Shown here one piece after another: positions 2,721 through 26,665 of a DNA stretch of 32,132 bases (positions are counted from its first letter, which is position 1; each line of letters begins with the position of its first letter). The stretch comes from Streptomyces sp. NTH33 (GTDB taxonomy: Bacteria > Actinomycetota > Actinomycetes > Streptomycetales > Streptomycetaceae). The DNA is taken from NCBI RefSeq assembly GCF_003236365.1, contig NZ_POTZ01000020.1:1-32132 (forward strand), written 5' to 3'. Position numbers and translations under genes: made by a program. The notes under the pieces are model-generated. The model worked only from the letters and a program-made list of their open reading frames with translations, did no database searches and had not been told where the DNA came from.

Positions 2721-2860
2721 CGGAGCACGATGAGCGCCCGGCCGCCGGCGCCCGCCGAGGCCGGATCGCTCACCCGCGGCAACTCGCCTGGAACAGCACC
2801 GTGCAGCGGCCGAAATACCGCCGCGCCCACTGGAGCACGGAGGCCGGTGGCGGTGGGCGG

Positions 2861-3025: not shown

Positions 3026-3034
3026 GAAACGAGG

Positions 3035-4616: not shown

Positions 4617-4635
4617 ACGGCGGGAAGGAGCCCCC

Positions 4636-12064: not shown

Positions 12065-12123
12065 CGATGTTCCTCACAGACGGTGCGTGTGCCCGGCGGC
12101 CCGGGCCCTTGCGGTGTTCCCGC

Positions 12124-13149
12124 TCAGGGGACGAGGATCGCGCGTCCCCGGACCCGGCCCGCGTCCAGGTCGGTGAGGGCGTCCTGGAAGCGGTCGAGCG
12201 GATAGGGGGTGGTGTGCAGGCGGACCCGCCCCTGGGTGGCGAGCACCATCAGCTCGCACAGGTCGTTGTAGGAGCCGACGAGGTTGCCGATGAAGTTGAT
12301 CTCGTTGGAGATGATGTCGATGGTCGGCACGTCGATGTTCTCGCCGTACCCGACCACGTGGTAGTCGCCCGCGCGGCGCAGCATGCGCACCCCGTCCCGG
12401 GTGGCGCCGCCCTCGCCGACGAAGTCGATCACCACCTCCGCTCCCCGGCCGCCGGTCAGCTCCAGCACCTGCTCGACCTGCCCCCCGTCGGCGACGACGC
12501 CGTGGTCGGCGCCGATGGAGCCGGCCAGCTTCACCGCGTCGGGGTTGCGGTCGACGACCACGATCTCGGCGGCCGTCAGGGCTTTGAGCACCTGCACGCC
12601 GATGTGCCCGAGCCCGCCGGCGCCGATGACCACGCAGCGGTCGCCGGGCCGCAGCTTCCGGGCCGCCTTGGCCACGGCGTGGTACGCCGTGAGGCCGGCG
12701 TCGGCCAGGGCCGCGACGTCGGCCGGCTCCAGGGAGTCGTCGATGCGGACCACGCTGCGGGCGGAGGTCTTCAGGTACTCGGCATAGCCGCCGGCCGTGT
12801 CGATGCCGGGGAAGAGGCTCTGCTCGCAGTGGACGTCGTCACCGGACCGGCACGCCCGGCACAGCCCGCAGGTGATCAGCGGGTGGACGATGACCTTGTC
12901 GCCCTCGGCGACGTTGGTGACGGCGCTGCCGACCGCGTGCACCCAGCCGGCGTTCTCGTGCCCGATCGTGTAGGGCAGTGTCACCCCGGACTTCTCCGCC
13001 CACTGCCCTTCCAGGATGTGCAGGTCGGTCCGGCACACGCCGGCGCCGCCGATCCTGACGACCACGTCGTACGGGCCGGTGACCGAGGGCTCCGGCACGT
13101 CGGTCATCTCGGGGTTGCGGCCGTAGCCGACGACCTGGACTGCTTTCAC
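12124..13149 (-). CDS. Zinc-dependent NAD(P)-dependent alcohol dehydrogenase (MDR family), mim/prm-cluster type
   Basis: This 341-residue medium-chain dehydrogenase would oxidise an alcohol to an aldehyde or ketone. The catalytic zinc ligands are C39 (GVCRTDLH) and H64-E65 (TIGHENAG). The structural zinc has four cysteines (C94, C97, C100, C108 in CGLCRACRSGDDVHC). The nucleotide-binding motif is GAGGLG (176-181) and an acidic VVVDRN suggests NAD+ preference. The GTG start overlaps the DUF59 stop (GTGA), and GAGGAGAAGG inside that gene is its ribosome binding site, so the two are translationally coupled. The order amidohydrolase-DUF59-ADH is the one I recall downstream of the mimABCD/prmABCD monooxygenase genes, where the ADH oxidises isopropanol-type products. 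Confidence 0.92.
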   Translation of the reverse strand: MKAVQVVGYGRNPEMTDVPEPSVTGPYDVVVRIGGAGVCRTDLHILEGQWAEKSGVTLPYTIGHENAGWVHAVGSAVTNVAEGDKVIVHPLITCGLCRACRSGDDVHCEQSLFPGIDTAGGYAEYLKTSARSVVRIDDSLEPADVAALADAGLTAYHAVAKAARKLRPGDRCVVIGAGGLGHIGVQVLKALTAAEIVVVDRNPDAVKLAGSIGADHGVVADGGQVEQVLELTGGRGAEVVIDFVGEGGATRDGVRMLRRAGDYHVVGYGENIDVPTIDIISNEINFIGNLVGSYNDLCELMVLATQGRVRLHTTPYPLDRFQDALTDLDAGRVRGRAILVP

Positions 13150-13901
13150 CAGGCCTTCTCCTCGGGAAGCGTGGCGGGCCGCGGATCCGTGGCCCGGGGG
13201 GACTGGTCGGCCGCGGACTCCGGGTAGCGGGTCCGCAGCAGACCGCGGCAGAAGTGGGCGTTGCCGTCGATCGAGATGCGGACCGCGCGGGCGAACCGCA
13301 GTCGCAGTGGAATCTCGTCCGGCGGGAAGGGGCGTCCGTCATCGTCGACGAGGACGGGCTCCGAGGGTGCCGTGCCGAGACCGAGCGCCTCGCGCCGGCG
13401 CAGCAGCGCGCGGGTCGCGGCGGTGTCGGGCAGGTCGCCGAGCACCACGTCGTGCAGTTTCCCCTCGGTGAGCGCGGGGTCCTGCCGCAGCAGCGCGGTG
13501 AGGGCCCGCTCCATCGCCGCGGAGTGGGCCTTGCGCCGGAAGACGAGCCGCAGTTCCCCCAGGCTCTCCTCGGCCTCGGCGCCGAACGTACCCCGGTACC
13601 CGGCGTCGGCGGCCAGGCCGCGGTTGATCAGGTCGGAGTCGTGGTGGTCGTCGAGCAGGACCGTGACCGGGCCGGCGTCCGGCAGGGCGGTCAGGACGTC
13701 CTTGGCGTCGGAGGCCATGAGGTAGGCGAAGTTCGGGGAGCAGAAGGAGGTGGGCAGCCGCAGGTGCACCGTCAGCCCGCGGTCGGGGCCGGCCTCGACG
13801 GAGCGGACGAAGCCGAGGTCGGTGATGGGTTCGTCCAGTTCGGGGTCGAGGACCGCGTCCAGCGCCTCCCTGGCCCGCTGCTCCAGTGTTCCGGTGGGCA
13901 T
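13146..13901 (-). CDS. DUF59 (iron-sulfur/metal-centre assembly type) protein of the mim/prm accessory cluster
   Basis: A 251-residue protein. The N-terminal 100 residues form a DUF59/MIP18-type domain: ALDAVLDPELDEPITDLGFV, RSVEAGPDRGLTVHLRLPT, SFCSPNFAYLM, where the cysteine sits in the place of the conserved DUF59 cysteine. The remaining 150 residues are an uncharacterised extension ending ISIDGNAHFCRGLLRTRYPES. Small DUF59 proteins help mature iron-sulfur or diiron enzymes, and in mycobacterial mim clusters a similar protein lies between the amidohydrolase and ADH genes. AAGGAG precedes the ATG at 13901, one base after the amidohydrolase stop. A role in cofactor insertion is inferred from context; the hydroxylase it would serve is not in the window. 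Confidence 0.82.
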   Translation of the reverse strand: MPTGTLEQRAREALDAVLDPELDEPITDLGFVRSVEAGPDRGLTVHLRLPTSFCSPNFAYLMASDAKDVLTALPDAGPVTVLLDDHHDSDLINRGLAADAGYRGTFGAEAEESLGELRLVFRRKAHSAAMERALTALLRQDPALTEGKLHDVVLGDLPDTAATRALLRRREALGLGTAPSEPVLVDDDGRPFPPDEIPLRLRFARAVRISIDGNAHFCRGLLRTRYPESAADQSPRATDPRPATLPEEKAW

Positions 13902-13902
13902 G

Positions 13903-14967
13903 TCACTCCTTCGTGGGCTGCGCCGCGACGGAGGCGGCCCCGGCCGGGCCCGCGGCCTCGCTCGCGGCCGGGCCCGGGGCGGTGGCCGCGACCTCGGCCC
14001 CGGCGGGCACCGGGATGTCGTACATGGCCGCCGCGTTCAGGCCGAGGATCTTCTTCTGCTCGACGGTGATCGGCGGGTACTCGTCCTGCAGGTCCTCGGG
14101 GATCTGGAAGTCGACGAACCGCTCGATCAGCCATCGGGGCGTCCACAGCGCGTAGTCGCTGGAGAACTGGATGCGGTTCTCGTCCAACCAGTACAGCAAC
14201 TCTCCGATGATCTGCGCGAAGTAGCGGGGGCGGGTGTGGATGAACGGGATGGCGACCGCGAGTCCGGCGTGCACGTTGGGCTCCTGGGTGGCGATCCAGC
14301 AGAAGTCCTCCAGCCGGGGCAGCCCGCAGTGCTCGACGACGAAGTTCAGCTCGGGAAAGTCCGTCGCGGCCTTGTCGACGTCCGCGACGTCGAAGGCGTC
14401 ACGGTCCAGCGGCCGGATCGTCGGCCCCTTGTGGACGTGGATGTTCTCGATGCCCAGCTCCTGGGCCATCTCCAGGTAGCGGTAGGACCACGGGTCGTCC
14501 AGCTTGTAGCCGCGCGAGTCGCCGTGCCACTCCGCGGTGTAGAGCTTGGCTCCCTTGAGCTGGAACCGGTCGGCGTCCCGCCGGAGCTGGTCGAGGCCCC
14601 GCTCCTCGTACCGGGGGTCCCAGCAGTGGTTGTAGGTCAGCTTGTCGGGGTGCTGCCGGGCCAGCGCGAAGGCCTCCTCGGTCTGCCCGAAGCCGTTGCG
14701 GTAGAAAGCGCTGAGCAGGGCGGGCTGGAAGATCGCGTGGTCTACGTACCCGTCGACGAAGAGGTCCTTCATCAGCCGCTGCCCGCCGTAGTAGAGGTAC
14801 TCCTCGTACGGCCACACCTCCGACTCGGGGCTGAGATTGCGGTGGTAGTCGTAGAAGCAGTCGATGAACTGCTTGCCGTGGATGTTGAGCTGGTTCTCGG
14901 GGCGTGCGTCCCACAGCGCGATGTGCGCGTCCACGATGAAGTAGTTCTCGCCGTCCTTGCTGTACAC
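13903..14967 (-). CDS. Amidohydrolase-2 family TIM-barrel protein of the mim/prm accessory cluster
   Basis: The protein has 354 residues from the GTG at 14967. I chose this start because GGAGG lies 5 bases upstream and family members begin near DGENYFIVDAH. Motifs include YFIVDAHIALWDARPEN (metal-binding D-x-H of amidohydrolase-2 proteins), FIDCFYDYHRNLSPESEVW, GAKLYTAEWHGDSRGYK, IENIHVHKGPTI (metal-binding His), NFVVEHCGLPRL (metal-binding His) and IQFSSDYALWTPRWL (catalytic Asp). An ATG at 15012 would add 15 residues but has no ribosome binding site. The last 40 residues are an alanine/proline-rich tail. Very similar proteins are encoded in propane/acetone monooxygenase clusters and are required there for active hydroxylase. 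It is the first gene of this operon. Confidence 0.88.
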   Translation of the reverse strand: MYSKDGENYFIVDAHIALWDARPENQLNIHGKQFIDCFYDYHRNLSPESEVWPYEEYLYYGGQRLMKDLFVDGYVDHAIFQPALLSAFYRNGFGQTEEAFALARQHPDKLTYNHCWDPRYEERGLDQLRRDADRFQLKGAKLYTAEWHGDSRGYKLDDPWSYRYLEMAQELGIENIHVHKGPTIRPLDRDAFDVADVDKAATDFPELNFVVEHCGLPRLEDFCWIATQEPNVHAGLAVAIPFIHTRPRYFAQIIGELLYWLDENRIQFSSDYALWTPRWLIERFVDFQIPEDLQDEYPPITVEQKKILGLNAAAMYDIPVPAGAEVAATAPGPAASEAAGPAGAASVAAQPTKE

Positions 14968-15066
14968 GTCGGCCTCCGTCCCTGTGAACGCCTCGTGCCA
15001 CAAAACCGACATTAAGCACGGAGCAGGGAGCCTGCGAGTCGTCGGCTGTCCCACTCCGAGACGGCC

Positions 15067-15130
15067 GGCCGGGAGCGCTTCCCGGCCACCGCGATCAGCC
15101 TGCGGGAAGTGGGAGAGCGGGCTCTTCCCG
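15067..15130. promoter_or_regulatory. Hairpin and inverted repeat between divergent genes
   Basis: Between the leftward amidohydrolase operon and the rightward membrane-protein gene lie a perfect 8-bp stem (GGCCGGGA 15067-15074, TCCCGGCC 15080-15087) and a second 7-bp inverted repeat (CGGGAAG 15103-15109, CTTCCCG 15124-15130, spacing 14). Either could be an operator for divergent promoters. The second overlaps the ribosome binding site of the gene at 15140. No protein partner is evident. Confidence 0.3.
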
Positions 15131-15139
15131 GAGGTCGAC

Positions 15140-15493
15140 GTGGACCATGAGAGCGGCGCGGCACCGCCTCCCGCCGAACGCGCGGCGGACGGCGGGGCCG
15201 CTGTCCTGCCGCCGCGCTTGCGCGCGTCCTGGCTGGGCAGCCGGCGGTACGGGGTGGCCCCGGACGAGATGCGGCCCGTCTTCACGGGCTCGGTCGACGA
15301 GGACTGCCTGCTGTACGAGCGAGGGCACGAGGTACTGCGGGGCTCCATGGACGCCGACACCCGCTCTGCCCGCGTCAAGGCCCTGTCCGCCATCGCCGTC
15401 GCCGAGTACCAGCGGCTCGCCCGCGCGGTCGACACGATCCTCGCCTCCCTCGCCCTGCTCCTGGTCGCCGCCGTCCTCGCGGTCGCCGGATGA
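15140..15493 (+). CDS. Small hypothetical protein with one C-terminal membrane segment
   Basis: A 117-residue protein starts at the GTG at 15140, with GGAGG 5 bases upstream. The N-terminal 30 residues are disordered (alanine, proline, glutamate). Then come PRLRASWLGSRRYGVAPDEM, RPVFTGSVDEDCLLYERGHE, and VLRGSMDADTRSARVKALSA. A final hydrophobic stretch of about 18 residues (ILASLALLLVAAVLAVAG) is a clear membrane segment ending at the stop. The topology suggests a tail-anchored cytoplasmic protein. The stop overlaps an ATG (ATGA at 15490) that begins MSSWPYALALALAP, an apparent second coupled gene that is cut off after about 14 codons. Family not recognised. Confidence 0.6.
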   Translation: MDHESGAAPPPAERAADGGAAVLPPRLRASWLGSRRYGVAPDEMRPVFTGSVDEDCLLYERGHEVLRGSMDADTRSARVKALSAIAVAEYQRLARAVDTILASLALLLVAAVLAVAG

Positions 15494-15531
15494 GCAGCTG
15501 GCCGTACGCGCTCGCCCTGGCCCTCGCCCCC

Positions 15532-15974
15532 GTGCGGGGACACCCTGCGCAACCTCACACCCATGGGCCTGAAGGCCGCCTCCTACGAGCTGGGACGTCC
15601 GGTGGGGGAGAGAGGGGCGGCCCGGCCCGTGGCGCGGGCCGCAGCGGCGCCTCCCACCCGATGGCGGTCAACGACGTCCTGTTCGCGCTGCTGCGTCCGA
15701 AGCCGGGCCCTGCTCGATGGCGAGCCGGTCGAAGTCCTCGCCGCGGCTCAGGCCGCCGTCGACGCTCCGGCCGGGCTGGGCACCGTCGCCTCCTCTGCGA
15801 CCGAGGCGGCGCTGCCCGCGACGGGCACGTGGTCCGCCCCCGGCAAGGGCGGCGCCCAGGCGGACATCGTGCTCACCGCCCCCGAGGACGGGGTGCCGCT
15901 GCTGTTCGTGGAGATCGACAACTGCTACGAGTCCGCGCAGGACCTCGCCGCGAAGATCGACAAGCACATGCGGT
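15532..15974 (+). pseudogene. Replication-relaxation-family protein relic, frameshifted and cut by an IS6 element
   Basis: Pieces in different forward frames read TLRNLTPMGLKAASYELGRP, then MAVNDVLFALLRPKP, then ALLDGEPVEVLAAAQAAVDA, PAGLGTVASSATEAALPATG, APGKGGAQADIVLTAPEDG, VPLLFVEIDNCYESAQDLAA, KIDKHMRW. This is the middle of Streptomyces replication-relaxation-type proteins, often carried by plasmids and integrative elements; FVEIDNC and K-x-D-K-x-x-R are the typical core. At least two frameshifts are present. The match stops exactly where the IS6 end begins at 15975, so the C-terminal half has been lost. At its left it abuts the truncated coupled ORF MSSWPYALALALAP (15490 to about 15530), marking an older junction. 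Confidence 0.6.
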
Positions 15975-16849
15975 GGCGCTGTCACGTTGTTGGGTGTGTG
16001 AGCGTCTGGTTGGGTGTGTGAGTGTCTGATGGCGCCGTCGGGGCGTGGTGGGCTTGCGCTTCGGGCCTGGTGTCAGGCTGTGGTGGACCGGTCGGCAGCA
16101 CCGGTGATCTGGTCCCGGATGGCGAAGCGGACGGTCATCTCGGCTCGGTGGTCGGGGGCTGTCATCAGGTGGCGGGGCCGGAAGCGGGGTGAGATGCCGC
16201 TGAACGCGGACAGGAACCGCTGGGCTGCGCCGGCGGAGCGGAAGCCCCTCATCGCGCGTTCGCGCCGGCGGGTGGGCTGGTGGCTGTTCCCGGCCCGGTT
16301 GTTGAGGCCCTTGTGCGAGCGGTGCCCGACCGAGGGCACGACCTCGCGGTGGGCCGCGCCGTAGGCACGGAGCTTGTCGGTGACGATCACCCTGGGCACC
16401 GCCCGGGTCTTCCGCATCAGGCGGCGGAAGAAGCGTCTGGCGGCGGCCTTGTCCCGGCGGCTCTGCAGGAGGATGTCGAGCACGTTGCCGTCGGCGTCGA
16501 CGGCCCGCCACAGGTACTTCTGCTCCCCGTTGAGCTTCACGAAGACCTCGCCCAGGTGCCACTTGCCCCCGGGCCGGGGCCGGCGGCGTAGCCCGTTCGC
16601 GCAGGTCTGGCCGAACTTGGCGGACCAGCGGCGGACGGTCTCGCAGGAGACGATGACGCCGCGCTGGAGCATCAACTTCTCGACCTCGCGGGAGCTGAGC
16701 GGGGCGGAAGCACAGCCACACGCAGTGGGAGATGACCTCGACCGGGTACCGGTGCCCCTTGTACGACGGCGACGCGCTCCCCACGGACGATCCCCCCACC
16801 ATGATCAACTCAAAGATCCTCCCACGCCATTCGCCAACATGACAGTGCC
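15975..16849 (-). mobile_element. IS6-family insertion sequence, about 875 bp
   Basis: The ends are imperfect inverted repeats. The left end (15975) is GGCGCTGTCACGTTG; the right end, read inward from 16849, is GGCACTGTCATGTTG, giving 13 of 15 matches. IS6-family elements typically start GGCACTGTT. The length is usual for the family, with one transposase gene on the reverse strand. The 8 bases outside the two ends (CATGCGGT left, GAACCGGC right) are different, so there is no target-site duplication. The left flank is a broken replication-relaxation gene and the right flank is a broken IS630 transposase. The element therefore marks a deletion or recombination joint rather than a simple insertion. 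Confidence 0.82.
16073..16802 (-). pseudogene. IS6-family transposase, frameshifted and lacking two catalytic residues
   Basis: The N-terminal part starts at the ATG at 16802 (SPSYKGHRYPVEVISHCVW, LCFR). The rest, in another frame, reads EVEKLMLQRGVIVSCETVRR, KWHLGEVFVKLNGEQKYLWR, AVDADGNVLDILLQSRRDKA, VPRVIVTDKLRAYGAAHREV, HKGLNNRAGNSHQPTRRRER. The frame change is within the GGGGCGG run at about 16701-16707. The family's DDE triad is D in WHLDE, D in VTDK and E in NNRAEN. Here the first and third are glycine (WHLGE, NNRAGN); only the middle Asp remains. With the frameshift this makes the transposase inactive on its own. Several further differences from the family form (Y to C twice, E to G, K to R) would each be A-to-G changes on the coding strand. 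Confidence 0.8.
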
Positions 16850-17189
16850 GAACCGGCGCCCGATCAGCGTCTTGATTCTCTCCAGGCTCCAGGTCTGGTC
16901 CGGCCAACCGCGCGCGGCCGGCCCTTCGGCCAGCTCCTGTTCCAGCACCGCGAACAGGTCCTCGCTCAGCTTGGGCCGGGCGGCCGAGCCCTTGGACCGC
17001 AGCGCCGGCCGGTCGGCCGTCCCGCCAAGCGCGGTGCCAGCGCTGCACCGACCGCACACCGACCCGCAACTGCTTCGCCACCAGTGTGTTGTCCTGCCCG
17101 GCCGCGAACATTCCCGCCGCTTCCAGCCGGAACCCCTGACGGAAGGTGCGGCGCTCGGCGGTCAGACCACCGTCTTGCGGATACCTCAT
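16850..17189 (-). pseudogene. IS630-family transposase relic, N-terminal half, frameshifted
   Basis: The reverse strand starts at the ATG at 17189 with MRYPQDGGLTAERRTFRQGF, RLEAAGMFAAGQDNTLVAKQ, LRVGVRSVQRWHRAWRDG. Then, in a shifted frame, it reads RPALRSKGSAARPKLSEDLF, AVLEQELAEGPAARGWPDQT, WSLERIKTLIGRRFGTV. This is the double helix-turn-helix DNA-binding half of an IS630-family transposase. The DDE half is missing because the IS6 end at 16849 cuts it. The frameshift is near 17015-17045. Inactive. Confidence 0.68.
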
Positions 17190-17285
17190 GGTTCGGACAC
17201 ACCACGACCATCGTCAGCCGTCAGCCCCGACGACATCACGCCCACGAAGTCAGTAGTCACCGGACAGCGGTCGCGCGACTCGCCG

Positions 17286-17325
17286 ACTCGGCACCGTGAT
17301 GGTCAACTCGGCACCGCGATGGTCA
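17286..17325. repeat. Two tandem copies of a 20-bp unit
   Basis: ACTCGGCACCGTGATGGTCA (17286-17305) is followed directly by ACTCGGCACCGCGATGGTCA (17306-17325), differing at one base. A third copy begins (ACTCG) and then diverges. It lies about 120 bp upstream of the DyP-encapsulin operon and about 100 bp outside the IS630 relic. It could be a duplicated operator for the operon or part of an IS end. Confidence 0.8.
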
Positions 17326-17445
17326 ACTCGCCGTCCAGGCGCGGTGGCGGCTGCTCAGGTCGCGTCATACGGTGGACAAGGAAGCGTTCCCGCAGTCACT
17401 CGAGTTGGTCGGCCCGCTCGTGACGGTCAGGAAGGGGCGCGCCCC

Positions 17446-18498
17446 ATGCGCGCACACTCCCAGGGCCCTGTGCCCCAGCCGGTGCTGTCCCCGTTGACGA
17501 ACGCGGCGATCTTCCTGGTGGTGACCATCGACCAGGGTGGCGAGCCGGTTGTGAGGGAAACGCTGTCGGACCTGAACGGCCTGCAGCGGGCGGTCGGCTT
17601 CCGGGCGACACCGGACGGGAAGCTCAGCGTGGTGGCGGGTATCGGCTCGGAAGCGTGGGATCGGCTGTTCGCCGGCCCCCGCCCGGCGGATCTGCACCCT
17701 TTCCAGGAGCTGGTCGGAGCGCGGCACCGGGCCGTCTCGACACCGGGTGACCTGCTGTTCCACATCCGCGCGGTCCGGCCGGACCTGTGCTTCGCACTGG
17801 CCGCCGAGATCATGGAACGACTCCGTGGTGTCGTCACCGTGCGTGACGAAGTGTACGGTTTCAAGTACTTCGACGTGCGTGACCTGCTCGGCTTTGTGGA
17901 CGGCACCGAGAACCCGACGGGCCCGGCGGCGGACGCGGCGGTCCTGATCGGCGACGAGGACTCGCAGTTCTGCGGGGGCAGCTATGCGGTCGTGCAGAAG
18001 TACCTGCACGACCTGCAGGCCTGGAACGCGCTTCCGGTAGAGGCCCAGGAGATGGTCATCGGACGCCGGAAGCTGTCCGACATCGAACTGGACGACGCGG
18101 TGAAACCGGCCGACTCCCACGTGGCACTCACCACGATCGAGGACCCGGACGGGACGAAGCACCAGATCCTGCGCGACAACATGCCCTTCGGCACCGTAGG
18201 ACAGGGCGAGTTCGGCACGTACTTCATCGGATACGCCCGCACACCGACCGTGACGGAACAGATGCTGGAACGCATGTTCCTGGGCGACCCCCCGGCGTCT
18301 CACGACCGGATCCTGGACTTCTCCACCCCGGTGACCGGGTCGCTGTTCCACGTGCCCACCAGTGACTTTCTCGACGACCTCCCCGATCCGCCGGCCACGC
18401 GTGAGAGCGACGAGAGCGACGAGAGCGAGGCGGTACCGACGGCGGTCCGGCTTCCGGTCGCGGACGGCTCCCTCGGGATCGGCGATTTGAGGATGTGA
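17446..18498 (+). CDS. DyP-type (class B) heme peroxidase, encapsulin cargo
   Basis: This 350-residue dye-decolorizing peroxidase uses heme and hydrogen peroxide. The class-B pattern is complete: LSPLTNAAIFLVVTID start, GDLLFHIRA, the GxxDG motif in LLGFVDGTENP (about residues 148-158, catalytic Asp), the proximal-heme His in VKPADSHVAL, the distal Arg in ILRDNMPFG, and GTYFIGYARTP. The last residues, after an acidic low-complexity linker (ESDESDESE), are LPVADGSLGIGDLRM. DGSLxIGxL is the well-known cargo-loading peptide of encapsulin-targeted DyPs, so this enzyme should be packaged in the shell encoded next. The ATG at 17446 has AGGAAGGGG upstream and matches the family start. First gene of a three-gene operon, 19 bp before encapsulin. 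Confidence 0.95.
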   Translation: MRAHSQGPVPQPVLSPLTNAAIFLVVTIDQGGEPVVRETLSDLNGLQRAVGFRATPDGKLSVVAGIGSEAWDRLFAGPRPADLHPFQELVGARHRAVSTPGDLLFHIRAVRPDLCFALAAEIMERLRGVVTVRDEVYGFKYFDVRDLLGFVDGTENPTGPAADAAVLIGDEDSQFCGGSYAVVQKYLHDLQAWNALPVEAQEMVIGRRKLSDIELDDAVKPADSHVALTTIEDPDGTKHQILRDNMPFGTVGQGEFGTYFIGYARTPTVTEQMLERMFLGDPPASHDRILDFSTPVTGSLFHVPTSDFLDDLPDPPATRESDESDESEAVPTAVRLPVADGSLGIGDLRM

Positions 18499-18517
18499 CG
18501 GAAGGCGAACACCCGCG

Positions 18518-19354
18518 ATGGACAACCTGCACCGTGAACTGGCACCCATCTCCGCCGCCGCGTGGGCCGATCTGGAGGACGAGGCACGACGTACGTTCAA
18601 GCGGCACGTCGCAGCCCGCCGCATGGTCGATGTGCCCGAGCCGGCTGGTCCGGAGTCGGCTGGTGTGGGGACCGGGCACGTGCGGGCCGTAGCGGCGCCG
18701 GCCGAAGGGGTCGAGGCCCGCGTACGCCGGTTCCAGCCCCTGGTCGAGTTGCGGGTGCCCTTCACCGTCGACCGGCAGCAGGTCGACGACGTCGCCCGAG
18801 GCGCCAAGGACGCGGACTGGCAGCCGGTCAAGGACGCCGCCCGGCAGATCGCCTTCGCCGAGGACCGCGCGGTGTTCGAGGGGTACGCGGCCGCCGACAT
18901 CTCCGGCCTGCGGGCCGGTTCGTCCCACTCCGCACTGACCCTGCCGTCGGAGGTGCGCGCGTGCCCCTACGTCGTCAGCAAGGCCCTGACCGCGCTGCGC
19001 CTCGCCGGTGTCGGCGGCCCGTACGCCCTGGCGCTGAGCGCCGAGGCGTACACCGCTGTCAGCGAGACGTCCGACTACGGCTACCCGGTCATCAAACACA
19101 TCGCCCGCGTCCTGGACGGTGACATCGTCTGGGCACCCGCCATCGACGGTGCCTTCCTGCTGTCGAGACGGGGCGGCGACTTCGAACTGCGCATCGGCCA
19201 GGACGTGTCCATCGGCTACCTGTCGCACGATGAGAGCAGCATCCGGCTGTACTTCCAGGAGACGCTGACCTTCCTCGTGCACACCGGTGAAGCCGTCGTC
19301 CCCGTGGAGGTCGAGACACCCAGGACCGCCGGGCCGTTGGAGACACAAACGTGA
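18518..19354 (+). CDS. Family 1 encapsulin shell protein (linocin-M18 type)
   Basis: The 278-residue protein has the HK97-fold encapsulin pattern along its whole length: NLHRELAPISAAAWADLEDE, ARRTFKRHVAARRMVDV, VRRFQPLVELRVPFTVDRQQ, FAEDRAVFEGYAAADISGLR, SYDYGYPV-like SETSDYGYPV, GDIVWAPAIDGAFLLSRRGG, DFELRIGQDVSIGYLSHDES, YFQETLTFLVHTGEAVV. Encapsulins self-assemble into nanocompartments that hold enzymes bearing a C-terminal targeting peptide, here the DyP upstream. The C-terminus extends about 15 residues beyond the usual end (VEVETPRTAGPLETQT), on the shell exterior if the fold is normal. Its stop overlaps the GTG of the dehydrogenase gene (GTGA), indicating translational coupling. Confidence 0.96.
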   Translation: MDNLHRELAPISAAAWADLEDEARRTFKRHVAARRMVDVPEPAGPESAGVGTGHVRAVAAPAEGVEARVRRFQPLVELRVPFTVDRQQVDDVARGAKDADWQPVKDAARQIAFAEDRAVFEGYAAADISGLRAGSSHSALTLPSEVRACPYVVSKALTALRLAGVGGPYALALSAEAYTAVSETSDYGYPVIKHIARVLDGDIVWAPAIDGAFLLSRRGGDFELRIGQDVSIGYLSHDESSIRLYFQETLTFLVHTGEAVVPVEVETPRTAGPLETQT

Positions 19355-20313
19355 AGGTCGGCATCGTCGGGGTGGGCGCGGTCGGGTCTGCCACGGCCCT
19401 GTCCCTGGTCGAACGCGGCGGAAGTTGGCGTGAGATCGTGCTGCTGGACCGCGACACAGCGCGCGCCGACGGCGTCGCCACCGACCTGCACTACGCCGCG
19501 CCGTTGTCACCGACGGTCGACGTGCGCTCCGGCGGCTACGACGACCTGGCCGATACCGCGGTCGTCGTCATCACCGCCGGGGTGAACGAGAAGGCCGGCG
19601 GCGCAACCGACCGGTCCGACCCCAAGGGATGGCTTCGGCTGCTTGAGACCAACGTCAGGGTCTACGCCGACATCGTTCCCCAAGTGGTGGCGGTAGTGCC
19701 GCAGGCGGTGCTCATGGTGGTCACCGACCCACCGGATCCGCTGGCCGACCTCACCCGGCATCTCGCCGGGCACAACCCGGTGTTCTCGACCGGAACCCTG
19801 ATCGACAGCCTCCGGTTCCGCGTGCAACTCGCCGACCGCCTCCGGGTCCGGCCGCGGGACGTGCAGGCGCAGGTGGTGGGTGAACACGGCACCTCCGAGG
19901 TGCTGTTGTGGTCCTCGGCGACGGTCGGTGGCATCGCCGTGACCGACCTGCTGGGGAAGGACGGCCAGTCGGTCGAGGAGTTGCGCCGGGAGGTGGAGAA
20001 CGATATCCGTTACGCCAACATCACCGTCATCGAGGGCATCGGCGCGAGCCAGTACGGCATCGGCGCCGTCTCCGCCCGACTCGTCGAGGCGGTCCTGCGC
20101 GACGAGCGTGCAGTGCTGCCCGTGGCCGCCTACTCCTCCGCCCACGAGGTCACGCTGTCCCTGTCCAGCGTTCTCGGCGCGGGAGGGGTCCAGCAGACGT
20201 ACGTACCCGCCATGTCGCCCCAGGAGCAACAGGCCCTGGACGACAGCGTCCATGTCCTGCGCGAAGCCGCCGAACTGGCCATTGCCGTAGCAGGGCGAGG
20301 TTGCTCGCCATGA
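19351..20313 (+). CDS. Lactate/malate-dehydrogenase-like NAD-dependent oxidoreductase coupled to the encapsulin operon
   Basis: A 320-residue member of the LDH/MDH family. Visible features are the Rossmann motif GIVGVGAVGSATA, the acidic NAD-binding LLDRD, ITAGVN, the Asp-Arg pair in GTLIDSLRFR (catalytic Asp, substrate-carboxylate Arg), and the catalytic His in VGEHGTSEV (about residue 179). Two places are atypical. The conserved VVTNP asparagine is aspartate (VVTDPPDP). The mobile loop after ITAGVN, normally QKPGETR-like, is EKAGGATDRSDPKG, so the substrate may not be lactate or malate. The GTG start lies within the encapsulin stop. The last six or seven residues (GRGCSP) may come from adjoining sequence, because a DUF1275 fragment begins there on the other strand. 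No cargo-loading peptide is seen, so it probably acts outside the shell. Confidence 0.85.
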   Translation: MKVGIVGVGAVGSATALSLVERGGSWREIVLLDRDTARADGVATDLHYAAPLSPTVDVRSGGYDDLADTAVVVITAGVNEKAGGATDRSDPKGWLRLLETNVRVYADIVPQVVAVVPQAVLMVVTDPPDPLADLTRHLAGHNPVFSTGTLIDSLRFRVQLADRLRVRPRDVQAQVVGEHGTSEVLLWSSATVGGIAVTDLLGKDGQSVEELRREVENDIRYANITVIEGIGASQYGIGAVSARLVEAVLRDERAVLPVAAYSSAHEVTLSLSSVLGAGGVQQTYVPAMSPQEQQALDDSVHVLREAAELAIAVAGRGCSP

Positions 20314-20395
20314 CCCCGGCGAAGACGCGGTCCAACGCAGTGAAGGAGATGGCTTCCACCGCACCGGAGGCCGCCACCAGCAGCACCACTGCAAG
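20296..20395 (-). pseudogene. Fragment of a DUF1275 (YoaK-type) membrane protein, first transmembrane region
   Basis: The reverse strand reads SRLAVVLLVAASGAVEAIS, FTALDRVFAGVMASNLALL. This fits the N-terminal region of DUF1275/YoaK membrane proteins (family form LLL..VTG.VDAVS..LG.VF.A.MTGN.V.L). It covers only about 35 residues. It stops at about 20296, where the dehydrogenase gene ends on the other strand, and abuts the IS1182 relic on the other side. It is a leftover of a lost gene caught between two rearrangement joints. The assignment rests on a short match. Confidence 0.42.
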
Positions 20396-21195
20396 GCGCG
20401 ACGATCCGCAAGGCCCCTTCGGTCTGTCCGTCCTTCTCGGTGCGCGGACGTAACCTGCCACGGGCATCGATGACGAAGTCCTGTACGACGATCTGTCGCA
20501 GCGCTTTCGCGTGAGGGCCGCGCCGGTGGGGCGGCAAGCGCTCAAGGAATCGGCGGGCATCCGCTCCCGCCTGCTTGAGCCGGGGGCAGGGGAGGCGGAC
20601 CGGACGCCCGTAGCGGGTGGCCCACTCGGCATCCACCCGGCCGTCCAGGATGTCAGGCGCCCGCCGGGTGGCTTCCTCCAGCGGCTGCACGTACCGCTTC
20701 GAGGGCCGGCTCCAGGCGGGTGAGGTCCCGCGCGGCGGCCAGAACCCGGGTGGAGTCGGTGCGCTGCTTCCCGCGTTCGGCGACCATGCCGGCGTCGCGC
20801 GTCCGTTCCAGCGACAGGGAGGGCAACTGGTCCGCGCGGGCGTTCTCGCACAGGCGCTCACGGAAATCCGTCAGCACACTGTGAGGGAATCCCGGGTCGT
20901 CCAGGGCCAGGACCAGGGCGTACTTGGAGTCGATGCGGCATCGCACCGCCTCGGCCGCCTGCCGGTCGGAGAGGTCGAGCAGGAACTGCAGCACACAGAC
21001 CGTGGCGAGTCGCGCAGGAGAGAGTCCGGGGCGGCCGTCGCGCTGATACCAGGAGACGAAGTCCGTGTCGTCCCCGAGCCCGTCGAGATGATCACGCACT
21101 CACATCGCAGTCGTACCGCCAAGGCTGCCGGCCCGCGCTGTCCGAGCGGTGAGCTCCGGCACCACCGCACCGGACCGGGAACGAACAGACACGGA
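20396..21195 (-). pseudogene. IS1182-family transposase relic, interrupted by a stop and a frameshift
   Basis: Reverse-strand pieces read VVPELTARTARAGSLGGTTAM then an in-frame TGA at about 21100. Next come VRDHLDGLGDD, GRPGLSPARLATVCVLQFLL, DLSDRQAAEAVRCRIDSKYA, LDDPGFPHSVLTDFRERLCE, GKQRTDSTRVLAAARDLTRL. After a frameshift near 20690 follow EEATRRAPDILDGRVDAEWA, TRYGRP, ALRQIVVQDFVIDARGRLRP, RTEKDGQTEGALRIVAP. These match the N-terminal and middle parts of IS1182-family transposases (LSPARL...QF...L.DRQAA..V..RIDWKY). The DDE C-terminal half after RIVAP is missing and replaced by the DUF1275 fragment. Inactive. Confidence 0.75.
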
Positions 21196-21389
21196 CCACC
21201 TCAGGAAGACAGGACACCCACCGAACCACCCGAAGCGTTCCAACCGCCGACTGCCCTGTCCCGGGAACTTCAAGATCCCCGACAGAGTCCTGATCCTGTG
21301 ACACTCCGGCTGCCCTGCGACAGCGGCTGCCCCTCGGTGAGGACGACGAACGAGCCGTACCAGTACCCCAGGCTGTCGGTGAAACGGCG

Positions 21390-21878
21390 TTACGCCGAGG
21401 CGGGCGCGGGTTCCTCCAGCGCGACCACGACCATCACCGGAAGGTCGGTGTCCTGCTGTACCACACCGGCGGTCAGACCCCGTCCGTCGAGGGCCCACTT
21501 GCGGGCGGCGACGAACTCGTCTTTGTCCGTGGCCGTCAGCTCAGCCTCGACAAGGTGGCCGGCGAGCGGGGAGTTTTCGATCTCGGGGAGGAACGCGCCC
21601 AGCGCCTGCTCGCCCTGCTCGTAGACGGCGTCCAGGTCGTCGAAGTAACCGGACTCGTCGACATCGCGGATCCAGACCGCGAACGAGACACGGACCGCCC
21701 CGCTGCGGAACTTCTGGATCCACCCCCGAATGCCGTCCTTGCGCCAGGACGTCTCCACACCGTCGCGGGACTTGCCCCCGGGCGTCCACTCCTGGGCCGC
21801 GAACCTTCCCGCCGCGCCCTCGGCGGTCAGCGGGACCAGGTTCCGGAGCTCTTCCAGCATTGCGGTCACTGCAGCCAT
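21390..21878 (-). CDS. Probable immunity protein for the Rhs toxin
   Basis: A 162-residue acidic cytoplasmic protein starts at the ATG at 21878, inside the last codons of the Rhs gene (13-bp overlap in a different frame). Segments include MLEELRNLVPLTAEGAAGRF, VETSWRKDGIRGWIQKFRSG, VRVSFAVWIRDVDESGYFDD, LEAEL-like HLVEAELTATDKDEFVAARK. I recognise no named immunity family. Its tight overlap behind a polymorphic toxin, small size and acidity are the standard signs of a cognate immunity gene. The frame also extends upstream, but that part overlaps Rhs and is not protein-like. The stop lies in a small hairpin (CGGCG-TTA-CGCCG, 21385-21397). Confidence 0.72.
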   Translation of the reverse strand: MAAVTAMLEELRNLVPLTAEGAAGRFAAQEWTPGGKSRDGVETSWRKDGIRGWIQKFRSGAVRVSFAVWIRDVDESGYFDDLDAVYEQGEQALGAFLPEIENSPLAGHLVEAELTATDKDEFVAARKWALDGRGLTAGVVQQDTDLPVMVVVALEEPAPASA

Positions 21879-24800
21879 GAACTCATTCCACTCATGCCGT
21901 TGCCGGGCACGTGATACGCCTTCAGCTGTCCGCTGGCGTAGGCCTCGGGGAAGGCCTTGGACAGCACCTCGTTCACATGCGCGGCGCCCCATTCATTGGA
22001 CACCATATAGCGGACCCCCTTGCCCCTGAGGTCCTCGTTGAGGGCGAGCAGCTTCTCGGTCTGCGTGGTGAGCCGGCTCTCGTCGTAGAACTCGAAAGCA
22101 GGATTGTAGGGGGATTTTTCCCACTCGCCGTAGTTGTCGCCGCCGGTCCACTTGGCTTCGGTGACCCAGCCGTCCCGTGGACCGCCGTCGATATGGACCT
22201 CTCGGCCGTCCGGCAGGATCCACTGTTGCTCGTACTTCTGGTCGGTGACGAGTCGCTGGTATCGGAACGACGGGCGTTCGAGTTGCTTCTCGGTCAGCCA
22301 GCCCAGTCCCTTGAATCGCGAGTAGGGCGACAGGCCGAGCGGGTCGCAGACGGTGAACGGGTTGTGCACATAGGCGACCGGGTTCGGCGCGGGGCCGAGA
22401 CCGAGAGGGTCTGGGGAGGTGTAGCGGCCGGTCCCCGGGTCGTAGTGGCGGAACAGGTTGTAATGGAGGCCGGTCTCGGGGTCGTAGTACTGGCCGGGGA
22501 AGCGCAGGGGGGTGTAGGCGGTACTGGAGCGAGTCCAGGCGGTGGTCCCCCAGAGGGTACTCCTGGCACGCCAGGCGATTTCGCCCGATTCGTCGATCAG
22601 CTCGGTGGGCGTGCCCACTAGGTCGGTGGCGATGGCGAAGAAGCGCCGGTCGATCTCCTCCTGGCGGATGTCCGGGGTGAGGAGGCGTTCCGTCTGGGAC
22701 AGCGGAACCAGGCCACGGTGGTCCCAGGTGAAGGCGACCACATGCGGCAGGTCCGGCGTGTGGACCGTCTGTTCGCACAGGGTCCTGCCGTCCCAGGTGA
22801 AACGGATCTCCTCAGCGACGCTCCCGCCATCGTCGGCGAGGCGCTGCTTGGCGGTGCGGCGGCCCAGGGGGTCGTAGCGGTAGCGCCAGCGGGTTCCGTC
22901 CGGGGTGGTGACGGAGGTGAGGCGGTTCTCGACGTCCCATGCGTAGCGCCAGGTGTCGGGCTTGCGGGACAGGCGGGTCTTCTGCCGCAGGGTGATGCGG
23001 CCGAGGGCGTCGTGCTCGAAGCGGACGGATCCGGCGCGGGTGATCGCTGTGCCGACGTAAGTCCGCGGTCCGGTGGCTTCGGTGCCGGGGTGGGAAGCGG
23101 GCCAGGACGCCTCGGTCTGGTTGCCGCTCGCGTCGTAGGCGTACCGCTCGGTCCAGCCCTGCGCGTGGACGGCGGTGACTCGGCCGGCCGCGTCCAGGGC
23201 GAAGGTGCGGGAGCCCGACAGTTCGTCGGACAGGGAGGCGAGATGGCCGTCGGCGCGATAGGAGTAGCGGCGGTGGTTGAGGGAGCGGTCGCTGATCGTC
23301 AGGTGCTGGGCGGAGAGTCTTCCGGCCTCGTCCCAGGCGGAGGTCAGGGTGAGTGCGCCGCCGAAGACGCGCTCGAGTTCCCGGCCGGCCGCGTCATGGG
23401 TGAAGGCGACCTCACGGCCGCCGACGGTCATCCGAGCGGGGCGGCCGACGGTGTCGTAGCCGTATTCGGTGACCGCGCCGGTGGGGGTGGTGCGGAGGAT
23501 GCGACGGCCCAGGGCGTCGTAGGCGTAGTTCATGGCGCGGCCGTCGACGAGTTCGGTCTTGATCCTCCCTCGCCGGTCGTACACATAGGCGACCTCGCTG
23601 TCCGGTCCGACTGCCTGCAGCAGGCGTCCGGCCCGGTCGTACGTATAGGTGGTCACCTTGCCCGCGGCGTCTTTGCGGACTGCTTGGCCGAGCTGGTCGT
23701 AGGCGTAGGAGACGACACCGCCGAGCACGTCGGCCCGGGCGGTGAGCTGCCCGGCGGCGTCGTAATGGTAGGTGAGGGTGCGGCCGTCGAAGTCGGTCTC
23801 GGAGACGAGCCGACCGGCTTTGTCGTACGTGTACGACCAGGTAAGCCCTTGGGGGGCGGTGACCTGGGTGAGCCGCAGGTCGGTGTCATGCTCGAACTCG
23901 TAGCGGGCGCCATCGGGGTGAGTGCGGGCGGCGAGGAGGTCGAAGTGGGTGTACTCGAAGCGGGAGACGCCGCCGGCCGGGTCGGTGTGGGTGAGGCAGT
24001 TGCCCTCGCCGTCGTAGGCCCATGACTCGGTGGAGCCGTCCGGGGTGACACGGCGAACGAGATTGCCGTCCGCATCCCATTCGAGACACGTGGCGCCGCC
24101 CACCGGGTCGACGATGCGGACCGTCCGGCCCAGAGCATCGCGTTCCAATCGAGTGGTGCCGCAGGCCGGGTCGGTCACCTCCACCGGCAGGCCGGCGGCG
24201 TCGCAGTGCACGGTGGTGGTGGCGCCGAGGGCGTCGGTGACAGTGATGAGCCTGCCCCGGTCGTCGTAGGCGTATCGGGTGGTGGAGCCTGACGGATCAG
24301 TGACGGCGGTGCGGTTGCCGCGTTCGTCGAACTCTTGGAGCCAACGGGTGCCGTCCGGCCCGTGGAACTCTGTGGGCAGCCCGAACGAGCCCCGTACAGT
24401 GCGCAGTTTGCTTCCGTTGGGCCGGGTGACGGCGAGCAGGCGGCCGTCCTCGTCATAGGTGAAGGCGGTGGTACGGCCCAAGGGGTCGGTGCGGGTCAGC
24501 AGGTTGCCGCTGGTGTCGTAGGTGAACCGGGCGGTATGCCCGAGCGGATCGGTGGTGGCGAGGACGCGACAGCCGGGGCCGATGAGGTGACGGGTGGCGC
24601 GGCCGTCGGCGGTGGTGAGCGTGGTGGTGCGGTGGCCGGTGGCGGGGTCGGGTTCGGTGTAGGTGAGGGTGACCTGGACGTGGCCGGCCTCGCCGCCCTC
24701 GGCGACGACCCGGTCGCGGTCGTCGTAGACGTAGTCGTAGCGGCGTTCGTTGGAGTCGGTCCAGGCGGTGACGCGGCGGCGGTCGTCGTAGACGAAGGTG

Positions 24801-26665
24801 GTGGTGGCGCCCGACGGCTTGGTGACGGCGGTGAGGTCGCCGTCCTGGTAGCCGTAGCCCATCAGGGGCAGGTCCGCGCCGCCCTGGCCCGCGCCGGCCA
24901 GGGACAGGGCGGTGATACGGCCGTCGCTCACGGCGATGGTCACCTGCTGGCCCGCCGAACAGGTCAGGGCGAGCGGGATGCCGTCCTCGGTGCGCTCCAC
25001 GGCCCACCAGTTGCCGTGAAGATCCTCGGTCCGTTCCAGCCAGGCGGTGCCGTCGTCCCCCGGCTCTCTGCCGGACGGGGCGGTGAAGTGGCGGACCAGG
25101 CCGGTGTCGGGGTCGGTGACCGTGTAGTCGCCGCCCGCGTCCCGGGCCAGCAGGGCGCGGAAGGCGCCCGTCTCCGGCCTGGTGGGAACGCCGGGCACCG
25201 GATGCGGATAGGTGATCAGCAGGCCGTCGGCGGTGACGTGGACGACGCCGACGGCGTCGATCTCCAGCCGCTCGTCGACCGTGGAGGCCCAGGAGGGCCC
25301 GAAGAAACGGCCGACCGTGCAACCGGACTCGGTGCGACGGGTGAACACCAACGGCAGAGTACCGGGCAGCGCGAAATCGGTCTGGGGCAGGAACATCCGG
25401 CCCGTGGCGAGGTCGACGGGGTCGGTGCCGGCAACGGTACGGGTTGCGTCCGGACGGTTGTGGGTGCCGTGGGGGACGTCGTCGACCAGTCTGCGCACCC
25501 GCGCGGCGTCGGCGGCGTCCGCGGCGAGACGCACGCCCTTGACCCCGGCGCCGCCGCCGCCGGTGGCCACGGTCAGCGCCAGGTCGGGGATCAGCCGGCC
25601 GAAGCCCTCGGCCGGGTCCTTCATGAAGTCCTTGACCATCTGGGTGCCGGTGCCGACGGGGTCGTTGGCGGCCACCACCAGGCCCGCGGCCAGGCTGTTG
25701 AGGGACGTCGCGTACTCGGCCGGGTGCGTGAGGTTGTACGGGTCCAGGAAGTTGACCGAGCGGACAAAGTTCAGGAGGCCGGCCGTGCCCTTGATGATCC
25801 CGCCACCGACGTGGTCGCCCATGAACTGCAGCTCCTGCAGACCGTCGCCCACCTGCTGCGCGTACGACGGCTTCTCCGGGGCCATGTCCCGCGCCGCCCG
25901 GACCGCGGAGCGCGCGGTCTCCGCGGCCGAGTTCCGCTGCTTGCGGGCCTCGGCGAGGAGGTCCTGCGCCTCCTGCATCAGCTTCTTGCCCGGGTCGTGG
26001 AACGTCGCCGCGGGACGCGGCGGCAGCGTGGACGGGTCCCGCTGGTCGGCGGGCTGGGCGTTGTACCGGTCGACGGCCTTGTTGTAGCCCTCGACCTTCT
26101 TGCGGTGCGCGTTTGCGGCGTCCTCGGAAGCCTTCACGCCCTCCTTCCACATATCGATCGCCGTCTGCGCCTGATTTTGAGCCCATACCACGGTGCCGGC
26201 GAACGCCTCCAGCGCGGCGGCCGCCTTCTCGACCGCGTCGGCGCCGGTGAACCACTTCGGCGGCTGGGTGCTCACGGCCTTCCGCAGCGCCTCGGCCGCC
26301 TCGCCCTTGAGCTGCGAGGAGCCCAGGCCCTTCAAGCCCTCGCCGGCGTCGTCGAACGCCGTCTGGAAGGAGCGGAGTTTCCCGGCGGTCGAGCGGATCT
26401 TCTCCGGGCTGCCGTAGATGAGTTTGGTCTTGTCCTCACTCTGCCCCAGGTCCATCTCGTCGACCTCGGCGCCCATCCGGTTCGCGACCGAACGGGACTG
26501 CTCGCGCACCCAGTCCGCGCCGGACTCCCAGCCGACGTCGTCCAGCCGGTCCGCGGTCCAGTTGCCCGCGTTCTCGACCCGGTCGCCCACCCACTCGACA
26601 CCGTCCTCGACCGCTTTCTCCACCGAGTCCGGTGTGATGTCCCTGATGAAATCGCCGACGCCCAT
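21866..26665 (-). CDS. Rhs/YD-repeat polymorphic toxin with ESX-type N-terminus and putative PD-(D/E)xK nuclease tip
   Basis: A 1599-residue protein in four parts. Residues 1 to about 300 are helical and resemble the putative T7SS (ESX) secretion-signal domain of actinobacterial toxins (LIYGSPEKIRSTAGKLRSFQ, QTAIDMWKEG). About 410-490 is a DUF6531-type domain (TDPVDLATGRMFLPQTDFAL, LVFTRRTESG). About 500-1400 holds around twenty YD repeats (YDDRGRLITV, YDAAGQL) that build the Rhs cocoon. The core ends with the Rhs signature YDPGTGRYTSPDPLGLGPAP. After AYVHNPFTVCDPLGLSPY comes a toxin tip of about 160 residues, with WILPDGREVHIDGGPRDGWV then TEAKW; the D...E-x-K spacing suggests a restriction-endonuclease-fold DNase. 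Its ATG is two bases after the preceding gene's stop, and its 3' end overlaps the immunity gene. Likely an interbacterial toxin. Confidence 0.93.
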   Translation of the reverse strand: MGVGDFIRDITPDSVEKAVEDGVEWVGDRVENAGNWTADRLDDVGWESGADWVREQSRSVANRMGAEVDEMDLGQSEDKTKLIYGSPEKIRSTAGKLRSFQTAFDDAGEGLKGLGSSQLKGEAAEALRKAVSTQPPKWFTGADAVEKAAAALEAFAGTVVWAQNQAQTAIDMWKEGVKASEDAANAHRKKVEGYNKAVDRYNAQPADQRDPSTLPPRPAATFHDPGKKLMQEAQDLLAEARKQRNSAAETARSAVRAARDMAPEKPSYAQQVGDGLQELQFMGDHVGGGIIKGTAGLLNFVRSVNFLDPYNLTHPAEYATSLNSLAAGLVVAANDPVGTGTQMVKDFMKDPAEGFGRLIPDLALTVATGGGGAGVKGVRLAADAADAARVRRLVDDVPHGTHNRPDATRTVAGTDPVDLATGRMFLPQTDFALPGTLPLVFTRRTESGCTVGRFFGPSWASTVDERLEIDAVGVVHVTADGLLITYPHPVPGVPTRPETGAFRALLARDAGGDYTVTDPDTGLVRHFTAPSGREPGDDGTAWLERTEDLHGNWWAVERTEDGIPLALTCSAGQQVTIAVSDGRITALSLAGAGQGGADLPLMGYGYQDGDLTAVTKPSGATTTFVYDDRRRVTAWTDSNERRYDYVYDDRDRVVAEGGEAGHVQVTLTYTEPDPATGHRTTTLTTADGRATRHLIGPGCRVLATTDPLGHTARFTYDTSGNLLTRTDPLGRTTAFTYDEDGRLLAVTRPNGSKLRTVRGSFGLPTEFHGPDGTRWLQEFDERGNRTAVTDPSGSTTRYAYDDRGRLITVTDALGATTTVHCDAAGLPVEVTDPACGTTRLERDALGRTVRIVDPVGGATCLEWDADGNLVRRVTPDGSTESWAYDGEGNCLTHTDPAGGVSRFEYTHFDLLAARTHPDGARYEFEHDTDLRLTQVTAPQGLTWSYTYDKAGRLVSETDFDGRTLTYHYDAAGQLTARADVLGGVVSYAYDQLGQAVRKDAAGKVTTYTYDRAGRLLQAVGPDSEVAYVYDRRGRIKTELVDGRAMNYAYDALGRRILRTTPTGAVTEYGYDTVGRPARMTVGGREVAFTHDAAGRELERVFGGALTLTSAWDEAGRLSAQHLTISDRSLNHRRYSYRADGHLASLSDELSGSRTFALDAAGRVTAVHAQGWTERYAYDASGNQTEASWPASHPGTEATGPRTYVGTAITRAGSVRFEHDALGRITLRQKTRLSRKPDTWRYAWDVENRLTSVTTPDGTRWRYRYDPLGRRTAKQRLADDGGSVAEEIRFTWDGRTLCEQTVHTPDLPHVVAFTWDHRGLVPLSQTERLLTPDIRQEEIDRRFFAIATDLVGTPTELIDESGEIAWRARSTLWGTTAWTRSSTAYTPLRFPGQYYDPETGLHYNLFRHYDPGTGRYTSPDPLGLGPAPNPVAYVHNPFTVCDPLGLSPYSRFKGLGWLTEKQLERPSFRYQRLVTDQKYEQQWILPDGREVHIDGGPRDGWVTEAKWTGGDNYGEWEKSPYNPAFEFYDESRLTTQTEKLLALNEDLRGKGVRYMVSNEWGAAHVNEVLSKAFPEAYASGQLKAYHVPGNGMSGMSSWLQ

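Follow-up and report, generated by a model that had tools for sequence, protein, structure and literature searches.

A DyP-encapsulin operon of Streptomyces sp. NTH33 with an overlapping, probably optional lactate dehydrogenase-like gene

What does a dehydrogenase gene do at the end of a peroxidase-encapsulin operon? A 32,132-nucleotide stretch of Streptomyces sp. NTH33 (contig NZ_POTZ01000020.1; this whole stretch is the window below) raises the question with three adjacent genes, for a DyP-type peroxidase, an encapsulin shell protein and an enzyme resembling lactate dehydrogenase (LDH). The original prediction for this locus had taken the third gene as the sign of a new branch of encapsulin systems, in which the dehydrogenase generates or uses the DyP substrate or supplies redox balance outside the shell. 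We think it likely that the locus is instead a standard DyP-encapsulin operon that captured an optional dehydrogenase accessory, which would act outside the shell and be impaired in the window. The unit consists of the following features, with expectation values (E) for the matches; MDH is malate dehydrogenase and NAD is nicotinamide adenine dinucleotide.

17446..18498, + strand: DyP-type (encapsulated subgroup) heme peroxidase, 350 amino acids (PF04261, 1.8e-34; PF20628, 7.2e-61)
18463..18489, + strand: C-terminal cargo (targeting) peptide DGSLGIGDL, read from the sequence
18518..19354, + strand: family 1 encapsulin shell protein, 278 amino acids (NF041155; Cfp29 encapsulin structures, E ~5e-109)
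19351..19354, + strand: GTGA overlap of the shell stop codon TGA (19352-19354) with the dehydrogenase start codon GTG (19351-19353)
19351..20313, + strand: LDH/MDH-superfamily NAD-type 2-hydroxyacid dehydrogenase, 320 amino acids (PF00056, 1.2e-23; PF02866, 3.6e-22)

The peroxidase scored 287.5 bits against NCBIfam TIGR01413 (cut-off 100.5), its best solved relative was 4gu7, named SCO7193 (E 2.4e-151), and it contains GFVDGTENP, which we take to be the GxxDG heme motif. Its C-terminus reads ...ADGSLGIGDLRM, the final letters being DGSLGIGDLRM, and DGSLGIGDL was identical in all seven DyPs from the dehydrogenase-bearing loci described below. The published consensus of DyP cargo peptides is GSLxIGSLK, which is contacted by shell residues Arg34 and Asp38 (PMC10960027). 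The corresponding window letters, GSLGIGDLR, agree at six of the eight specified positions, with Asp for Ser and Arg for Lys, so that DyP domains are combined with a C-terminal peptide of the GSLxIGSLK type, as in encapsulated DyP cargo. By analogy with known homologues, the peroxidase would be packed into the shell via this peptide and would oxidize its substrates with peroxide.

The shell gene, whose ATG lies 19 bases behind the DyP stop codon, is the sole PF04454 match of the genome (320 bits against a cut-off of 24.3; NF041155, 340.7 against 100). At the cargo-peptide site its translation has both Arg34 and Asp38, and its residues 1-262 align to residues 1-262 of the Klebsiella shell 8u50. 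DyP upstream of shell, a GSLxIGSLK-type peptide and Arg34/Asp38 are likewise found in the family 1 systems of Mycobacterium (Cfp29-DyP), Brevibacterium linens and Klebsiella pneumoniae; the window differs from these in its GSLGIGDLR version of the peptide and in the additional overlapping dehydrogenase gene. Judged by these matches, DyP and shell make up an ordinary, standard DyP-encapsulin nanocompartment operon. Such systems are numerous (1,505 DyP systems have been counted), and Streptomyces DyP operons with optional accessory genes are on record (PMC8346489). The shell gene also occurs on plasmids, one of them from Streptomyces at 73.9%; for the dehydrogenase clade, no plasmid record of at least 60% identity was found.

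The original prediction is confirmed as far as the architecture is concerned: the three genes, assigned by Pfam and NCBIfam scores, lie at the stated positions and form a tight unit, the cargo peptide and the 19-bp gap can be read directly, DyP-encapsulin pairs were already known, and the dehydrogenase starts inside the encapsulin stop codon, a placement that suits translational coupling to the shell gene. The shell/dehydrogenase junction was ATGA in five of the six other loci and was mutated in the sixth (Streptomyces sp. 1-11). The DyP-shell-dehydrogenase unit of ~2.9 kb recurred in seven Streptomyces loci with differing flanks. DNA similarity between the window and its six relatives began 26-40 bases before DyP and stopped at the dehydrogenase C-terminus (L043, L047, L076, L146) or, in the truncated L087 and L148, inside the dehydrogenase; the flanks within window positions 13000-25000 were unmatched in the six relatives apart from short pieces. 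On these alignments, the three-gene unit behaves like a small movable block.

The third gene was rare beside encapsulin. We searched 392 genomes of the genus for both encapsulin and the dehydrogenase clade (membership at E below 1e-30) and found encapsulin in 98 and the clade in 10, two of the latter having C-terminal fragments only; five candidates were scored per genome in the dehydrogenase searches of genus and class, and misses are possible. A dehydrogenase or its remains lay beside encapsulin in five of the 98 encapsulin-bearing genomes: the window genome, G672, G766, G542 (frameshifted) and G675 (an N-terminal remnant). A scan of genome contigs, comprising 46 loci (among them L043, which is G672, and L076, which is G542), added Streptomyces NRRL F-5122 (L047) and S. 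colonosanans (L087). Four of the resulting seven operon loci have full-length dehydrogenases and three have broken ones, whereas DyP and shell are open in all seven. In the class, encapsulin was matched in 85 of 394 genomes; 29 of these loci were fetched with ~1.5 kb on each side, and DyP was present at every one and the dehydrogenase at none. Among the genus loci L020 and L088-L115 the dehydrogenase adjoined encapsulin in 4/29. No common gene after the shell was evident by eye in 29 other Streptomyces loci, an inspection of one best frame per locus with no family search. A stable new branch is not supported by these counts, nor by the broken state of three of the seven copies; the original prediction had itself held that absence of the dehydrogenase from beside encapsulin in relatives would speak against it, and this is largely what the survey found.

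The broken copies differ in their lesions. The gene is frameshifted in NWU339 (L076), ~56 codons remain in S. colonosanans, and ~58 codons remain in Streptomyces sp. 1-11 (L148), where both the dehydrogenase start and the shell stop are mutated. Besides this operon remnant, the contig of sp. 1-11 carries an intact copy at a distance of ~78 kb (L149). The full-length dehydrogenases gave ratios of nonsynonymous to synonymous substitution (dN/dS, simple pairwise Nei-Gojobori estimates) of 0.16-0.34, a range similar to that of DyP and shell and indicative of purifying selection; the gene has thus been useful somewhere, as a working gene. The window copy is full-length and shows changes of its own.

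19630..19632, + strand: TGG codon for Trp94, at the site of catalytic Arg109 of LDH, which all 36 other aligned members of the clade retain
20288..20413, - strand: DUF1275 remnant of 126 bases, the N-terminal part of a convergent gene (tblastn, 76% identity, E 1e-14)

Two further changes of the window copy, R143P and I226V, fall at otherwise invariant columns. Among the other Streptomyces rows, five of eight (L043, L047, L116, L042, L044) had no such change and three had one or two, and the distant members L072 and L074 had six each. Relative to L047, ~600 bp are missing downstream, by which the final residues of the window dehydrogenase were replaced: by blastn, window 20289-20392 corresponds to L047 7496-7599 and follows directly after the match that ends at L047 6890. 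No DUF1275 match above threshold was detected elsewhere in the window genome. With Trp in place of the catalytic Arg and its DUF1275 neighbor deleted, the window dehydrogenase is probably impaired, provided that the Trp codon is genuine; a sequencing error is conceivable for it as for the NWU339 frameshift.

How the third gene was acquired can be sketched as follows. One Streptomyces lineage would have joined a cytosolic NAD-dependent dehydrogenase gene, drawn from an unrelated and patchily inherited LDH-like clade, to the operon via the overlapping start and stop codons. Its product would be translated together with the shell and stay outside it, since it has no cargo peptide; there it may convert a 2-hydroxy or 2-oxo acid other than lactate or malate, as an optional accessory that DyP would not require. 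Packing inside the shell as a second cargo, which the position of the gene in an encapsulin operon might suggest, is very improbable: a GSLxIG-type motif was present in none of the 37 aligned dehydrogenases (window copy included), whose termini were inspected, and 32 of the 34 clade loci surveyed have no encapsulin nearby. With the targeting peptide missing in 37/37, we rejected this candidate.

The absence of a targeting-type motif in these 37 sequences leaves a role outside the shell as the surviving form of the idea that the dehydrogenase is a substrate or redox partner; the part of that idea which has it share a substrate with DyP was not supported. A functional partner outside the shell would make or remove a DyP substrate or product, or balance reduced NAD (NADH) under oxidative stress. 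Several results point this way and weigh against a merely captured accessory. The overlap persists in six of the seven loci, which favors some benefit of co-expression, and the three genes are conserved as a unit whose form and overlap are kept amid unrelated flanks, as expected if co-expression is selected. The full-length copies are under purifying selection, and those of L043, L047 and L146 are intact with the Arg kept.

Genome-wide co-occurrence also counts on that side. Encapsulin was present in 24 of 36 clade-bearing genomes, against 85/394 in the class. Those 24 comprise five linked genomes, nine of Mycobacterium or Planotetraspora and ten from other lineages. Encapsulin remained in 19/31 when the five linked genomes were set aside (p = 6e-6) and in 10/22 when the nine were removed as well (p = 0.016 against the class), p-values in which shared ancestry is corrected only by these removals of lineages. 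In the genus, encapsulin occurred in 8 of the 10 clade genomes and in 90 of the 382 others (p = 0.0003), and in 3/5 clade genomes without the linked ones (p = 0.09). A further genome, G757, holds a 48-residue dehydrogenase fragment (67%, E 5e-11) and stands outside the ten; its inclusion would give 9/11. Against these figures, in the Planotetraspora family, with both searches made over one set of 90 genomes, encapsulin was present in 4 of 9 clade genomes and 27 of 81 others (p = 0.49, no association), and three of the four encapsulin-bearing clade genomes were Planotetraspora. The excess is partly a matter of lineage, and a weak real link between clade and encapsulin may exist. We rejected the stronger proposal, that the clade travels with encapsulin genome-wide, in view of the family-level control, though the excess of 10/22 remains. 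Of 22 clade genomes searched for DyP domains, 19 had them, a count with no background figure from which no inference is drawn.

The partner explanation has a precedent in enterobacterial DyP-encapsulin operons, which carry an NAD-dependent formate dehydrogenase without a cargo peptide (PMC10960027; also PMC12140327), an enzyme for which a role in stress has been suggested. "DyP-encapsulin plus a dehydrogenase" is thus not new as an arrangement, and a redox link in Streptomyces is possible. As in the window, the enterobacterial dehydrogenase gene lies next to DyP and shell with transposase genes flanking (PMC10960027, PMC12140327). It differs in preceding DyP (PMC10960027) and in its good conservation, whereas the window gene is LDH-like, downstream, overlapping, rare and decaying. 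Comparable too are the Streptomyces DyP-encapsulin operons of PMC8346489, which likewise have optional accessory genes of unassigned role, either DUF1345 or a set of DUF5709, 6-phosphogluconate dehydrogenase and diaminopimelate decarboxylase; the window enzyme, of the Ldh_1_N/Ldh_1_C type, is unlike that 6-phosphogluconate dehydrogenase. The word "lactate" is absent from the main text of PMC8346489 as available in excerpt, supplements standing outside this check. Among the open-licence papers listed, we found no LDH-like dehydrogenase associated with a DyP-encapsulin system; in PMC6733911 encapsulin and lactate dehydrogenase come up separately, without relation to each other, and S. lividans is described as having no encapsulin gene (PMC11168072).

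Taken against the three broken copies of seven, the lost catalytic Arg of the window copy, the lack of the dehydrogenase beside most other encapsulins examined and the null result in the one family searched for both, a functional partnership with the DyP-encapsulin operon appears unlikely to us. In addition, DyPs use peroxide and not NADH. An optional, captured accessory accounts better for a gene of this kind, and the case limits what may be concluded from operon partners: the start/stop overlap suggests a pathway link, and relatives show an optional, decaying gene.

Which enzyme was captured is suggested by its domains, Ldh_1_N and Ldh_1_C, and by its fold. The predicted structure (mean predicted local distance difference test score 87) had Thermus thermophilus LDH as its top match (43-44% identity, template modeling (TM) score 0.85). 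Both domains and fold place it in the LDH/MDH superfamily and not in the D-2-hydroxyacid dehydrogenase family, which refines the original description as 2-hydroxyacid-dehydrogenase-like. Of the catalytic set of the superfamily the window copy keeps Asp168, Arg171 and His195 and has Trp for Arg109. In a midpoint-rooted tree of 53 rows the clade stood apart, beside the Thermus and Deinococcus LDH rows. Glu80 occupies the position of LDH Gln102 and MDH Arg102 and was invariant in the 18 alignment rows checked. Two further features mark the active site.

19600..19623, + strand: insertion of eight residues, GATDRSDP, within the substrate-specificity loop, following Glu80 and lying between positions 102 and 109 (from the alignment; a low-confidence loop in the model)
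19726..19728, + strand: Asp126 in TDPPDP, where LDHs have Asn (TNPVD); TDPPDP in 37/37 aligned members

The Asn of TNPVD is presumably Asn140. With the L-LDHs of T. thermophilus and Deinococcus radiodurans the clade shares the fold (TM ~0.8-0.85), 42-44% identity and Asp168/His195/Arg171; it differs from them in the Glu at 102, the eight-residue insertion, the Asp for the TNPVD Asn and a Ser for Thr at 246, and the window copy alone also in its Trp at 109. A true L-lactate dehydrogenase was ruled out, as TIGR01771 scored 232.3 for the window, 249.1 for S. kebangsaanensis and 243.5 for Sphaerisporangium against a cut-off of 303.55, and by the Glu, not Gln, at position 102. Malate dehydrogenase was ruled out by TIGR01763 (123.8 against 351.85), by PRK06223 (165.2 against 283) and by the same residue, which is not Arg. 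A relative from Verrucomicrobiota (L077, 3022-3867) has the loop insertion and the Glu, yet reads TNPLDP, and is intermediate between LDH and the clade.

These active-site letters suggest that the clade is a 2-hydroxyacid dehydrogenase acting on neither lactate nor malate. As a speculation, position 102 and the position of the TNPVD Asn, both acidic in the clade, may hint at a substrate with a cationic side chain. Acidic mutants of Gln102 have reportedly been made in Bacillus LDH; our literature search for redesign of LDH toward cationic substrates found nothing usable. Position 102 governs specificity, and for HicDH-type enzymes, in which a different residue stands at 102 and extra residues separate it from 109, a changed specificity is considered probable (PMC4109310). 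The clade shares with these a residue other than Gln or Arg at 102, the insertion and the remaining catalytic residues, a comparison made by description, the tree including no HicDH sequence. With its altered active site, the clade looks like a separate, uncharacterized family of the LDH/MDH superfamily.

The wider contexts of the clade point to another neighbor. We collected 34 loci (L042-L075) with up to 6 kb on either side, L067 and L070 having almost no upstream sequence. DyP or shell was found near the dehydrogenase in L043 and L047 only, and in none of the other 32. A DUF1275 membrane-protein gene lay beside the dehydrogenase in 13 of the 34 (in L071 as second neighbor), convergent in six and co-directional in seven, and the pairing spans Actinomycetota, Chloroflexota and Dormiibacterota. 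By tblastn, which covered all 34 loci, 12 were found, and Pfam added L074; the Pfam scan comprised 51 neighbor genes of 31/34 loci, leaving out L058, L059 and L073 (near-copies of L056) and some upstream genes of other loci. Because genomes have only ~1.4 DUF1275 matches each (33 matches in 23 genomes), this adjacency is far above chance; several of the 13 loci are close relatives (four mycobacteria and three related actinobacterial metagenome-assembled genomes). S. acidipaludis (L052) has the dehydrogenase and DUF1275 with no DyP-shell in the 12.9 kb covered, NRRL F-5122 (L047) has DyP, shell, dehydrogenase and DUF1275 all together, and the window and NWU339 retain DUF1275 remnants. The simplest history that these arrangements suggest is that DyP and shell joined a pre-existing dehydrogenase-DUF1275 pair.

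The true partner of the dehydrogenase may then be the DUF1275 membrane protein, for instance in uptake or export of an acid, DyP and shell having merely joined upstream in Streptomyces. This explanation, which is compatible with a captured accessory, draws on the pairing across three phyla and on the series of L052, L047, the window and NWU339. It has against it the 21 of 34 loci in which no DUF1275 was seen, the close kinship of several of the 13, and the uncharacterized function of DUF1275, on which a literature search for DUF1275/YoaK found nothing. We regard it as a serious possibility, falling a little short of an even chance. A more specific proposal, that the clade is a new LDH/MDH-superfamily family for a cationic or large 2-oxo acid (Glu as specificity residue, Asp for Asn) with DUF1275 as its partner, recruited to the operon as a counterpart of the formate dehydrogenase, is doubtful, and we rate it slightly lower even than the partnership with DyP-encapsulin; if true, it would offer a first biochemical handle on DUF1275. 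As findings, the enzyme family and its link to DUF1275 have more novelty than the encapsulin operon. An uncharacterized LDH-like clade whose active site is altered, present in three phyla and repeatedly paired with DUF1275, is a useful by-product of the survey. In one locus, from a Pseudonocardia metagenome-assembled genome (L048, 2314-7288), the dehydrogenase lies between apparent hemE and hemA genes, followed by one resembling hemC; one member each was matched by URO-D and by GlutR_N, and a heme-related reading was dropped, as the context occurred in this single locus.

Around the unit, the window contains transposase pieces on both sides.

16073..16675, - strand: upstream, a piece of an IS240-type transposase (PF13610, 7.6e-36)
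20653..21099, - strand: downstream, a piece of a DUF772 transposase (PF05598, 5e-15)

Farther downstream, 21866-26665 (- strand) encodes a protein resembling Rhs/polymorphic toxins, with a putative type VII secretion system signal domain and RHS repeats. A small gene downstream of it (21390-21869, - strand), which overlaps it and has no Pfam match, could encode an immunity protein. At 1232-7068 (+ strand), genes for a Ku-domain protein, an SbcD-like phosphoesterase and an SbcC-like ATPase form a double-strand-break repair set. The genes at 11732-15558 (- strand), for an amidohydrolase, an iron-sulfur assembly protein (PF01883), a zinc alcohol dehydrogenase and an ABM-domain protein, stand in one run, which we take to resemble the last part of an operon for a propane-type monooxygenase.

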